From: Moheibacter lacus | Lineage (GTDB): Bacteria; Bacteroidota; Bacteroidia; Flavobacteriales; Weeksellaceae | DNA: 64,000 nucleotides | Reading direction: 5' to 3' | Assembly: GCF_014042165.1 (NCBI RefSeq) | Contig: NZ_JACDZE010000002.1 | Coordinates: 186,001-250,000, forward strand | Shown: piece by piece, positions 45,887 through 49,295 of the stretch | How the letters are laid out: each line of letters opens with the position of its first letter | Numbering within the stretch: the stretch's first letter is position 1 | Position numbers and translations under genes: made by a program | The notes under the pieces: model-generated | The model's database searches: none | What the model was told of the DNA's origin: nothing | The model's input: only the letters and a program-made list of their open reading frames with translations

Positions 45887-46984
45887 TCACTCAAAAACCT
45901 TATCGATGAATTTAGAATTCAACAGCCTCGCAACCGCCATATAATTGGGTGTGAAACTGATTTGGTCACCCACTTTATAAACCTGATTTCCTTCTTCATC
46001 CAAATTATCACCTAAATCTACCACGATCATATCGGAAGTTATCCCCACAAAATCCAAAGCTGTATTCAGCGGTTCGATGTCTTCCCGATTCACATCCAGC
46101 ATCCCAAAATCCAAAATGGCTTTTACTGATGATTCTCCTCTTTTTTCTTGATCAAACTCCGCTGTATGACCGATGTTCCCATCGCTGATTACACCATCCG
46201 GAACGGTTTGTTTAATTTCGAGTTCGATGATGTTGGCTTTGAATTCAAAGGTATCGACCGACAAACCTTCAAATTTTTCATTGTCATAAGGTGATACCCC
46301 AAAAAATGCTGCTTCGCCAATTCTAAAATGGTTGATTTCAGGCGGAATCGTTCCTTGATTGATCAAAGGTAAAGTGATCGAAGAACCACCAGAAATCAAA
46401 GGTAAATTTTTATTGAATTTGGCAGAAATCAATTCTTTGTACAAGACCAAATGCAATAATTTGTCTTGTGTCGGGATGATTCCGTACATACAACCGAGAT
46501 TTGAACCTAACCCAATCACCTCAATATTGGACAATTCAAATACTTTTTCATAAAAATCCATCACATCATTTCGGTTGATGCCTTCGCGCAATTCTCCCAA
46601 TTCGATCATGATGATGATTTGGTGGGTTTTGTTCATCTTTTTGGCCGATTCATTGAGCGCTTGAATTGTTTCATAAGATGAATTCAAAGAAATATCGGCA
46701 TACTCGACCACTTGATCTGCATAGATTTTTGCAGGTGGTTTGATGTAAATGGTTTTCATTTCCGGATTGACTTCTTTCAAATTCTTCAAACTGGTCAACC
46801 GAGAATCTCCAACTGAATTGATATGCTGAATCACTTCAGGCGTCAACACATTTTCAAGAAAGGTTTTATCGCCGGAAAATACCTTGGTGATCAAACTCCA
46901 TTGGATATTGTTTTTCGAAAGAAATTGGCTCAAATACTGAATATTTTCTTGTATTTTTTTGGTTCGAATGATTAATTCTGCCAT
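45887..46984 (-). CDS. PLP-dependent alanine/ornithine racemase family protein
   Basis: 365 residues, fold-type III. The PLP lysine is K34 in SLITKVFSGD; LGSNLGCMYG and the phosphate-binding SGGSS follow. This is the long alanine-racemase-like group that includes ornithine racemase, not Alr of the cell wall. Amino acid specificity unknown. The ATG lies 13 bases inside the symporter gene, so the pair is coupled and the symporter may bring in the substrate. Confidence 0.87.
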   Translation of the reverse strand: MAELIIRTKKIQENIQYLSQFLSKNNIQWSLITKVFSGDKTFLENVLTPEVIQHINSVGDSRLTSLKNLKEVNPEMKTIYIKPPAKIYADQVVEYADISLNSSYETIQALNESAKKMNKTHQIIIMIELGELREGINRNDVMDFYEKVFELSNIEVIGLGSNLGCMYGIIPTQDKLLHLVLYKELISAKFNKNLPLISGGSSITLPLINQGTIPPEINHFRIGEAAFFGVSPYDNEKFEGLSVDTFEFKANIIELEIKQTVPDGVISDGNIGHTAEFDQEKRGESSVKAILDFGMLDVNREDIEPLNTALDFVGITSDMIVVDLGDNLDEEGNQVYKVGDQISFTPNYMAVARLLNSKFIDKVFE

Positions 46985-48420
46985 GTTTTTTGTTTATAAT
47001 TTGAATAATTTTGGACTACTATAAAGCTAATTGTTGCGATTAAAATTCCAAAGAAATTGGCATCGAGGGAAAAAGGTAATTCTATTTTACTTAAAATTAA
47101 AATCAAAGTTGTTCCTCCTCCCAAAATCATCGCGATCAAAGCTGCTTTTGAAGATGGTTTTTTACAAATCAAAGCACCCAAAACAGGAACTAGTAGCCCA
47201 GAAACCATAAAAGCATACGAATAAAGCATGAGGTCCAAAACGTTTTGCATCATCGTGGCCAATACAATCGCCAAAGCACCGATGATTAAGGTGACAAATT
47301 GAGACAAACGGACTTGATTGTACTTTCCTTCTCCTTTGAAATATCCCAAAATATCAGTCATGAAATTACCGGAAGCCGCCATCAAACAACTATCAGCCGT
47401 AGACATGATCGCTGAAAAATAAGCTGACATCATCAGTCCGATGAATCCGATCGGTAAAACCGTGGTCAACAATAATGGCAAACCCAATTCTGCGTCCATT
47501 TCTGAACCGGGAGCATACCCAATTCCCGTAAACATTCCTTGATTAAATGCAACTCTGGCAAACATTCCTAGAATTACGCCCATAAAAGCCATCACAGGCC
47601 ACTCAAAAAGTCCGGCGATTTTCCATGCTTTTTTTGCGGTTTTCTCATCTCGGCAAGCATAAATCCTTTGGTACAAAGTCATACCCACAAACCAAATCGG
47701 GACGATGGTGATGAGCCAATTGAAAAGAGTGAGCCAAGAAACATTGGTAAATGATAAAAATTCCGCAGGTAAGCTTTGTTGAATCACATCCCAACCGCCG
47801 ATTTTAAAATAAGCGATTGGAATTCCTATGAAACACAATCCGACCATTAAGATCATCCACTGAATCGTATCGGTATAAATTACGGCTTTGATCCCGCCGA
47901 TTACGGTATAGACAACTGCGATCACACCCATGAGTAGAGCCGCTTCTTTGATCGTAAAATTTGGGAAAGTTGCAGAAGCCAGTTTGGCTCCGGCGAGAAT
48001 CTGGGAACTCGTAAACCCGATGTAGCCGATGAGCGAAATGATTCCGGCGACCAGTGCTACTTTTTTGTTATAATGAAAATTTAATGTTTCAGGAAAGGTT
48101 AAAAATTGATGTTTTTTGGCAATCGGATAAATTTTGGGAATGAGAAAAACCACACTTAACCAAGCTCCGATCAATCCTGAAAAAAGCATCCAACTCCCAG
48201 ATAATCCCATCACGAAACCCAAACCTCCTAAACCGATGGAAAATCCACCGCCTACGTCTGTCGCAACGACAGAAAGACCGATATGACCAGCGCTCATATT
48301 ACGACCACCTACGAAATAATCCTCGTTGGATTTGTTTTTTCGCATGAAATAAATTCCCACACCGATCATTGCGATCATGTACAACACAAAAATCGATAAA
48401 TCTAGTAGATGAATCTGCAT
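46972..48420 (-). CDS. sodium:solute symporter (SSS family)
   Basis: 482 residues with 13 membrane helices. SSS hallmarks: NKSNEDYFVGGRNM, GLSVVATDVGGGFSIGLGG and SAYFSAIMSTADSCLMAASG. The ATG (48420-48418) shares one base with the rpsU stop (TGATG), and the 3' end overlaps the racemase start. Import of an amino acid for the racemase is plausible but unproven. Confidence 0.92.
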   Translation of the reverse strand: MQIHLLDLSIFVLYMIAMIGVGIYFMRKNKSNEDYFVGGRNMSAGHIGLSVVATDVGGGFSIGLGGLGFVMGLSGSWMLFSGLIGAWLSVVFLIPKIYPIAKKHQFLTFPETLNFHYNKKVALVAGIISLIGYIGFTSSQILAGAKLASATFPNFTIKEAALLMGVIAVVYTVIGGIKAVIYTDTIQWMILMVGLCFIGIPIAYFKIGGWDVIQQSLPAEFLSFTNVSWLTLFNWLITIVPIWFVGMTLYQRIYACRDEKTAKKAWKIAGLFEWPVMAFMGVILGMFARVAFNQGMFTGIGYAPGSEMDAELGLPLLLTTVLPIGFIGLMMSAYFSAIMSTADSCLMAASGNFMTDILGYFKGEGKYNQVRLSQFVTLIIGALAIVLATMMQNVLDLMLYSYAFMVSGLLVPVLGALICKKPSSKAALIAMILGGGTTLILILSKIELPFSLDANFFGILIATISFIVVQNYSNYKQKTWQN

Positions 48421-48617
48421 CAGATTTCGTTTTGCTCGTTCAAAAATTGCTGTTTATAAACCGCTTTTTTTCTTTGTTCCCTTTTTTCTATGGATTTTTT
48501 GATGAATTGTTGATTTGCTCTGATTTGCTTTAAGACTTTGGTTCGTTGGTATTTTTTCCGGTATCTTTTAATGGCTTTGTCTATACTTTCTGATTCTTTT
48601 ACTTGTACTATTAACAA
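48420..48617 (-). CDS. rpsU: 30S ribosomal protein bS21
   Basis: 65 residues, basic, matching bS21 (SESIDKAIKRYRKKYQRTKV ... RANQQFIKKSIEKREQRKKA). In Flavobacteriia bS21 helps hide the anti-Shine-Dalgarno end of 16S rRNA. The frame contains no ATG. TTG at 48617 gives MLIVQVK, aligning with the usual MLI start; a stop codon lies two codons upstream. No purine-rich Shine-Dalgarno is visible. It is followed, one base overlapping, by a symporter gene, an unusual neighbour. Confidence 0.93.
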   Translation of the reverse strand: MLIVQVKESESIDKAIKRYRKKYQRTKVLKQIRANQQFIKKSIEKREQRKKAVYKQQFLNEQNEI

Positions 48618-48673
48618 AATTTAGTTTTTAAATTAAACATGTATTGAATTGATTCTAAATGAAATCAATCCAC

Positions 48674-49108
48674 TTATCTTTTCAATCTCATTTCCAAATA
48701 AGGATTGGTAAATCCATATTTTTCATATAAAAATTTGGCAGGATTGTCTTTCTCAACGTGAAGTGCGATATCACCTTTACAGTTGGCGATGGTGTGTTCC
48801 ATCAGTAATTTCCCAACTCCGGTTCCACGGTGTTCTTTATGAACAGCGATATAGACCAAAATGTTATCCGGAATGTATTCATCCATTCCCGTTTTATTGA
48901 CGATAACCGCTCCGGCGATTTCGCCGTCTTTTTCTGCCGTAAAAACATAACCTCCTAAACTTGCACGCTCTTTCATGGCATATTCGATCGCTTTTCTGAT
49001 GGCAGACTTGGTATCGCCATACTGGTCTAGATTTTCATATAAGAAATTGACGATCCGTTCAACATCAATCGGCGATAGTTGGTTATGGGTTTTGACTTTG
49101 TAGTTCAT
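48674..49108 (-). CDS. GNAT family N-acetyltransferase
   Basis: 144 residues with the GNAT fold. The acetyl-CoA loop is HKEHRGTGVGKLLME (about 94-108) and the C-terminal strand is DNPAKFLYEKYGF. The substrate is unknown: a small amine or protein N-terminus. First of GNAT-rpsU-symporter-racemase, 56 bases before rpsU. Confidence 0.9.
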   Translation of the reverse strand: MNYKVKTHNQLSPIDVERIVNFLYENLDQYGDTKSAIRKAIEYAMKERASLGGYVFTAEKDGEIAGAVIVNKTGMDEYIPDNILVYIAVHKEHRGTGVGKLLMEHTIANCKGDIALHVEKDNPAKFLYEKYGFTNPYLEMRLKR

Positions 49109-49295
49109 TTATCGTTTTTTAGTTTACCCCCATTATAACCCATTTGGGAAACTGACAAAATAATTACAGTAAAAATTTTAAATGTACTGATCAAATTTAT
49201 CCATGACATCATCATTTCTACTTTTTATAACATCTGTATCGAATAAGGCAATTGCCGTATTTTGGGGTGTTTAACTGTAGATTTCCTTTAAAATA

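Follow-up and report, generated by a model that had tools for sequence, protein, structure and literature searches.

Gene content of the locus

Here we describe a bS21 gene that lies within a metabolic gene cluster of Moheibacter lacus, in a 64,000-nucleotide stretch of DNA referred to as the window. The window genome is denoted G000, the other genomes compared carry G numbers, and the loci that were read carry L numbers. The cluster runs along one strand in the order GNAT acetyltransferase, bS21, SSF symporter and racemase, with the last three genes overlapping. Its features, including candidate start signals and the absence or presence of a Shine-Dalgarno (SD) sequence, are as follows.

48674..49108, minus strand: GNAT acetyltransferase, first gene of the cluster (PF13508, PF00583)
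48618..48673, minus strand: A+T-rich leader of 56 nt (GC 0.196) from the GNAT stop to the TTG, without an SD for the genome's own 16S tail
48611..48640, minus strand: out-of-frame ATG frame of 9 codons, its TAA overlapping the TTG region (identified by eye)
48621..48623, minus strand: in-frame stop TAA that closes the bS21 frame upstream (in-frame codons)
48618..48620, minus strand: ATT, sole alternative start possible downstream of the stop (an AUU, compare infC; in-frame codons)
48615..48617, minus strand: TTG, the likeliest start codon (opposite the bS21 initiator Met in the model alignment)
48420..48617, minus strand: bS21 paralogue gene of 65 codons, TTG start and TGA stop (ORF listing and profile matches)
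48418..48422, minus strand: TGATG, in which the bS21 stop overlaps the symporter start by one base (ORF listing and codons)
46972..48420, minus strand: SSF sodium:solute symporter, 482 aa (PF00474, 156.2 bits)
45887..46984, minus strand: PLP racemase-like protein (PF01168), overlapping the symporter gene by 13 bases

The closest NCBIfam model of the racemase-like protein is ornithine racemase Orr, at 278.5 bits and thus below the curated 480. Of the two genes flanking the cluster, one encodes a nuclease domain and the other has no Pfam match. The order of genes differs among relatives: in the sister species (G001), the GNAT and racemase genes are adjacent, without bS21 and symporter between them, and in G041 the GNAT and symporter genes are adjacent, again without bS21. 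These arrangements indicate a variable operon, to which bS21 was added or in which it has remained. A close symporter homologue is found in 29 of the 395 genomes of the order, and within fetched flanks of up to 1.5 kb a bS21 frame lies nearby only in G000 and in G523. The latter genome belongs to another family and has a second bS21 gene directly before GNAT, symporter and racemase genes.

A block reading TTTTGTCAGTTTC ... AATGGGG (window 49128-49160, minus strand) is located 5' of the GNAT gene and also precedes the GNAT gene of G001 (L127). Judged by eye, it differs from the typical promoter of flavobacteria, and it may be a promoter under regulation.

Start codon and leader of the window bS21 gene

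The 65-residue product scores above the curated cut-offs of both bS21 families over the domain (PF01165, 49.1 bits with a cut-off of 27; TIGR00030, 45.6 bits with a cut-off of 28.95). All 65 codons are open and Tyr54 is kept. The G+C content of the gene is 0.303, compared with 0.368 for the window.

A preliminary description of this DNA had proposed that the frame contains no ATG, that it starts at TTG or at the ATT before it, and that no SD precedes it, and each of these points was borne out. No ATG occurs among the in-frame codons of 48420-48617 (minus strand). The codons at the 5' side read ...TAA TTT AAA AAC TAA ATT TTG TTA, leaving TTG 48617, two codons past an in-frame TAA, as the sole usual start. 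Because this stop directly precedes the ATT, the start must be either TTG 48617 or ATT 48620. When aligned to a bS21 model of ten sequences, the window protein among them, the TTG lines up with the initiator Met at model position 1, and it has an A at -3; on these two grounds the ATT is probably the less likely start. As to an IF3-like AUU start, an ATT stands in frame at 48620, but the alignment of TTG with the Met makes its use less likely.

Pairing of the leader (-22..-4) with the genome's own 16S tail reaches only -0.8 kcal/mol, a value equalled or bettered by 509 of 1000 shuffles, so that no SD was found in this leader. The start region also folds more weakly than its shuffles (z 1.26, with folding at least as stable in 185 of 200), so that no hidden structure is present there. 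A search of the whole window against Rfam at gathering scores gave no match. The 9-codon ATG frame (48611..48640, minus strand) could possibly act as a competitor of bS21 translation or feed it by re-initiation. A -1 frameshift from this short frame into the bS21 frame, and a promoter inside the 56-nt leader, were both considered and rejected by eye only.

With one duplicate left out, 191 of 192 other bS21 sequences start with ATG (29/30, 36/36, 48/48 and 78/78 in the four sets counted), and the sole exception, from a 0.3-Mb genome, has a wrongly placed model start, an ATG lying just before it. The TTG start is therefore private to the window gene among the bS21 sequences counted. The scarcity of Met is itself less unusual. 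The ordinary rpsU of G000 has Met at residue 1 only, which means that the window copy differs from it by one codon in Met content. Internal Met residues are common in bS21 (45/48 ordinary and 75/79 paralogue sequences of other families; 18/30 in the sample of relatives), and they sit within the domain, where they would not start a whole protein. A control role for the TTG is conjectural, and the change from ATG to TTG could also mark early decay of the gene.

The ordinary rpsU and the altered anti-SD of G000

A search of the whole genome revealed two bS21 genes in G000, the window copy and a copy on contig C1. The C1 copy (G000:C1:1456639) is the ordinary rpsU, with 65.1 bits as opposed to 48.3 for the window copy, an ATG start, and on its 3' side a XerC-type integrase-family gene, a gene for an S30AE-domain hibernation factor and tRNA-Thr. 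The two proteins share 53% identity. Of the features of an SD-autoregulated rpsU, the window gene lacks the extended SD, the ATG and the xerC neighbor, while the C1 copy has the ATG and xerC. The earlier assumption that the window gene is the genome's ordinary rpsU is thus incorrect.

The 16S tail of G000 is AACAUCUCUUAUAU, and the 16S gene ends in ...GGCTGGAACATCTCTTATAT, an altered anti-SD with a UCUCU core. By its sequence, this anti-SD belongs to the type described for Chryseobacteria and their relatives (UCUCA), which suggests, short of proof, a place among the Weeksellaceae. At the 3' end of the G000 16S gene (L032:1501-3019, G000:C9) the tail is AACATCTCTTATAT, as opposed to AACACCTCCTTTCT in G041. 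G003 and G004, of the same genus, and G022 share the UCUCU core, which G020 has with one more change, and UCUCA occurs in 10 of the 15 genomes of the window family for which the 16S tail was read.

The ordinary rpsU carries a short, modest SD whose pairing with this altered tail, at -6.3 kcal/mol, is equalled or bettered by 12 of 1000 shuffles. The preliminary description had suggested setting rpsU upstream regions against the 16S 3' end of this genome and its relatives. In this comparison the window copy lacks an SD and the ordinary rpsU has one. Since an SD-bearing rpsU exists elsewhere in the genome, the missing SD of the window gene represents no loss of known control from rpsU; it is the normal condition in a separate class of bS21 paralogues, described below.

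With the G000-type tail, pairing of the ordinary rpsU is -7.0 kcal/mol in G001, -2.0 in G002, -0.9 in G003, -7.0 in G004 and -9.9 in G005; in this genus, own 16S tails were read for G000, G003 and G004 only. Pairing with own tails amounts to -14.4 to -14.6 kcal/mol in the relatives G006, G022 and G009. The range of -0.9 to -9.9 against about -14.5 indicates that the rpsU SD itself is weak in the window genus. Being both weak and variable there (L001:1479-1494, L004, L006, L008, L019, L020), it may signify that rpsU autoregulation is fading in this genus. Separately, a His replaces Tyr at position 54 in 7 of 30 ordinary bS21 sequences of the relatives sample, all within the window family (L009, L010, L016, L017, L023, L025, L031).

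A class of SD-less bS21 paralogues

In other families we read 127 bS21 sequences (one of them a duplicate) and assigned 79 to a paralogue type and 48 to the ordinary type by a residue motif around positions 24-28 (Arg24-Asn/Asp25). Most were taken from the top-scoring positions of a paralogue profile, and the 79:48 ratio therefore does not reflect how frequent the two types are. Using one common tail throughout, that of G041 (own tails, where used, begin one base further 5'), pairing of -10 kcal/mol or stronger was found in none of the 79 paralogue sequences and in 40 of the 48 ordinary ones. The only paralogue past -7 is L186, at -9.8 kcal/mol. All eight ordinary sequences without a strong SD come from two other families, in which 1 of 9 has one, and in the family of G523 it is present in 39 of 39. 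The same stretch encodes a XerC homologue in 46 of the 48 ordinary cases and in none of the 79 paralogue cases.

All 78 distinct paralogues have an ATG start and Tyr54. The two types are separated by 18 alignment columns, 10 of them at positions 23-37. Arg24 is present in all unique paralogue sequences and Asn25 in 94%. Asn35 occurs in 45/78 paralogues and 0/114 ordinary sequences, and Lys27 in 77/78 and 2/114, respectively, although the latter count is partly circular because Lys27 belongs to the motif used for class assignment.

Two gene contexts recur. In 46 of the 79 cases the paralogue is preceded by an RpoD-like sigma gene in the same orientation, and in 41 of these the gap is at most 44 nt. 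Where this gene is directly upstream (for example L194, L203, L253-L255, L257, L258, L293-L300), the pair is a possible operon of an alternative sigma factor and an alternative ribosomal protein. The 27 genomes with such a pair that were checked all have two or three RpoD-like genes, counted at E <= 1e-50 and perhaps including other sigma genes. By the same count, 19 of the 25 paralogue genomes without a sigma gene seen alongside have one RpoD-like gene and 6 have two, and 12 of 21 single-bS21 genomes (not of paralogue type where read) have two or more. A second RpoD and the paralogue are therefore often found together, without being tied to each other. In the other context, a GNAT gene directly follows the paralogue in nine genomes (G523, G870, G676, G876, G658, G664, G863, G868, G672), with the symporter in the same stretch in five and the racemase seen in three.

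Distribution of additional bS21 genes

In the window family, bS21 was matched in 314 of 320 genomes, and two matches were found only in G000; among the other 319, there is one match in 313 and none in 6. No ortholog of the window copy was detected in the other five genomes of the genus, two of which are 76-81% complete. The family of G523 differs in that bS21 is found in 377 of 397 genomes, with two matches in 125 and three in 13 (138/397 in all, counted by eye from the scan table, with some of these second copies read). A GTDB scan with the window protein returned 37 loci, of which 36 are bS21 genes, all of the ordinary type with an ATG and a XerC homologue in the fetched flank; the remaining locus, L105, is a long unrelated frame. 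There were also three plasmid matches. Of the two that were opened, one is an rpsU-xerC-raiA-tuf block and the second has rpsU and raiA. These Bacteroides records (L303, L304), filed as plasmids of 39-40 kb, thus carry what look like chromosomal core genes.

In seven genomes that are at least 99% complete, the single bS21 found is of the paralogue type (G720, G901, G965, G809, G903, G519, G355), although only G901 is a single contig and assembly gaps are possible in the rest. An eighth such genome, G658, is 88% complete. The ordinary rpsU appears to be missing from the seven near-complete genomes (L195, L196, L198, L199, L214, L220, L228). We count the seven genomes in favor of a ribosomal role for the paralogues, as the paralogue would be their sole bS21.

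Affiliation and origin of the window copy

That the window gene is a second, divergent bS21 beside the ordinary rpsU is directly observed, and we refer to it locally as bS21-B. It likely, though not provably, belongs to the SD-less class. Like the class, it has Lys27 and Asn35 and no SD, and it has Lys41, as do 15 of the 78 paralogues. It also shares the linkage to GNAT, symporter and racemase seen in the nine genomes above; however, the order differs, with bS21 behind GNAT in G000 and in front of it elsewhere. The class motif Arg24-Asn/Asp25 is replaced by Gln24-Arg25, and the residue is of the ordinary type at the discriminating columns 3, 5, 25, 26, 31 and 55. The ordinary bS21 profile scores higher than the paralogue model (85.3 and 70.3 bits). 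In the tree the window copy groups with paralogues (support 89/96) on a long branch (1.73) and with a bootstrap that had not settled, and an AU test does not reject its grouping with ordinary bS21 (p = 0.227). Its nearest sequences by tree path are the paralogues L187 and L233, the latter also giving the highest identity (56%). When phage bS21 sequences are added, the tree does not resolve its placement.

We consider it most probable, at roughly 0.6, that the window gene is a bS21 paralogue that lacks an SD, has escaped rpsU autoregulation and is expressed as part of its operon. An unlikely alternative is that it is a recent duplicate of the genome's own rpsU that inserted by chance into the operon and is drifting, the loss of the ATG being the start of decay. 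The restriction of the second copy to one genome of the family, the TTG start and the low G+C content agree with such a history, as do the AU test and the higher score with the ordinary model. Against it stand the 53% identity to the genome's own rpsU, with 65 open codons and an intact Tyr54, and the presence of Lys27, Asn35 and Lys41. In addition, a random insertion would hardly hit the same cluster in which paralogues of another family reside.

Acquisition from a phage, which we regard as similarly improbable, would account for the SD-less leader and Lys27, both shared with phage bS21 proteins, which often have a KKS motif as well. The best phage match of the window protein has 52.3% identity over 98% (LR756502), with KKSI-KREQ common to both. 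Among 126 phage sequences with an ATG, retrieved for the most part with a single phage query and a single paralogue query and hence not a random sample, 118 have Lys27, 73 have KKS and 125 have no strong SD. The tree is too poor to speak against such a source. Against this, the GNAT, symporter and racemase neighbors belong to metabolic and transport families rather than to phage genes, the nearest sequences by path are the cellular paralogues L187 and L233, and a scan of IMG/VR for close relatives of the window protein found none. A separate phage record of 735 kb, LR756501 (L305:79-103), encodes an ordinary-type bS21 (KPS, no Asn35) and is the sole one of the 126 with a strong SD (AAAGGAGG, -12.1 kcal/mol).

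Finally, we regard as very unlikely the reading in which the window gene is the cell's rpsU and control has passed from the SD to a UUG or AUU start. In its favor, the TTG and the missing SD are real, and the TTG is private among the bS21 genes counted. Against it, G000 has a better-scoring rpsU with ATG, xerC neighbor and a fitting SD, and SD-less paralogues elsewhere use ATG in 78 of 78 cases. For this last reason, a missing SD does not call for a rare start. The earlier proposal that a rare start takes over from the SD thus does not hold as a rule, but for the window gene alone it may still apply.

Proposed expression and function of bS21-B

The biology of Flavobacterium bS21 and its SD, to which the preliminary description had turned, proved to be the right frame for the window gene. 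In F. johnsoniae, bS21-free ribosomes prefer the rpsU mRNA owing to its SD (McNutt et al. 2023, PMC9976891). The window gene would be transcribed together with the GNAT gene, and SD-independent initiation at UUG would receive no feedback from bS21-free ribosomes. We infer that, for want of an SD, it escapes the loop in which such ribosomes translate rpsU. The protein would then be made whenever the operon is transcribed, at a rate kept low by the UUG start and perhaps in part through re-initiation, and translation of the symporter would be coupled to that of bS21-B through the TGATG overlap. Tyr54 helps hold the anti-SD in F. johnsoniae bS21. In some 30S subunits, bS21-B may replace ordinary bS21 so that the anti-SD stays hidden while a different segment, around residues 23-37, is presented near the mRNA path. 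Incorporation of bS21 paralogues into ribosomes has been reported for Francisella (PMC9578407).

A broader generalization is more tentative, and we would give it somewhat less than even odds: that Flavobacteriales possess an overlooked SD-less bS21 through which a portion of the bS21 supply is released from the rpsU loop, that in one family it often sits behind a second RpoD in an operon that could supply both, that it replaces ordinary bS21 in some genomes, and that in G000 it is tied to the transport/racemase operon, with the UUG keeping its level low, so that the composition of the ribosomes would track the state of this operon. Widespread SD-less bS21 genes would bypass the rpsU loop and offer natural material for testing bS21 composition against mRNA choice, namely genomes with both bS21 types and genomes in which only the SD-less type was found.

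Comparison with known systems

Multiple bS21 genes, phage bS21, altered anti-SDs and a second RpoD are each already known. In the literature searched, mainly outside subscription journals and supplementary tables, we found no report of SD-less bS21 paralogues in Flavobacteriales or Bacteroidota, whether behind a second RpoD or before GNAT. Likewise, the accessible portion of the ribosomal-protein census of Yutin et al. 2012 (PMC3353972) reports no such paralogues, though a table entry may exist, and the organisms with extra bS21 genes named in the available text of McNutt et al. 2023 (PMC9976891) include no Bacteroidota.

In Francisella tularensis, as in G000, there is more than one bS21 gene per genome, and ribosome heterogeneity was shown there (PMC9578407). 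However, Francisella belongs to another phylum in which mRNAs commonly have SDs, so that escape from SD autoregulation is not at issue. The bS21 proteins of Bacteroidota phages also keep an aromatic residue at position 54, and they are reported to diverge at Arg21, Phe23, Asp25 and Thr28, close to the segment in which the paralogue class differs (PMC9723584). In contrast to the window copy, which resides in a chromosomal metabolic cluster, their genes lie close to structural genes in phage genomes. Dokdonia is known to have a second RpoD (PMC3587595). This resembles the second RpoD-like gene that precedes the paralogue by no more than 44 nt in 41 of 79 sequences, whereas in G000 the single RpoD-like gene is on another contig and the window locus has no sigma gene.

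The alternative anti-SD UCUCA of Chryseobacteria and relatives, with a covarying rpsU SD, was described by Jha et al. 2021, according to PMC8710568. G000 has an altered tail of that kind and its ordinary rpsU fits it, but the core is UCUCU and rpsU pairing in the genus is weak (-0.9 to -9.9 kcal/mol). A further comparison is with the autoregulated rpsU of F. johnsoniae (PMC9976891), whose product likewise has Tyr54. That gene has an extended SD and an ATG, whereas the window gene has neither and exists alongside an ordinary rpsU in the same genome.
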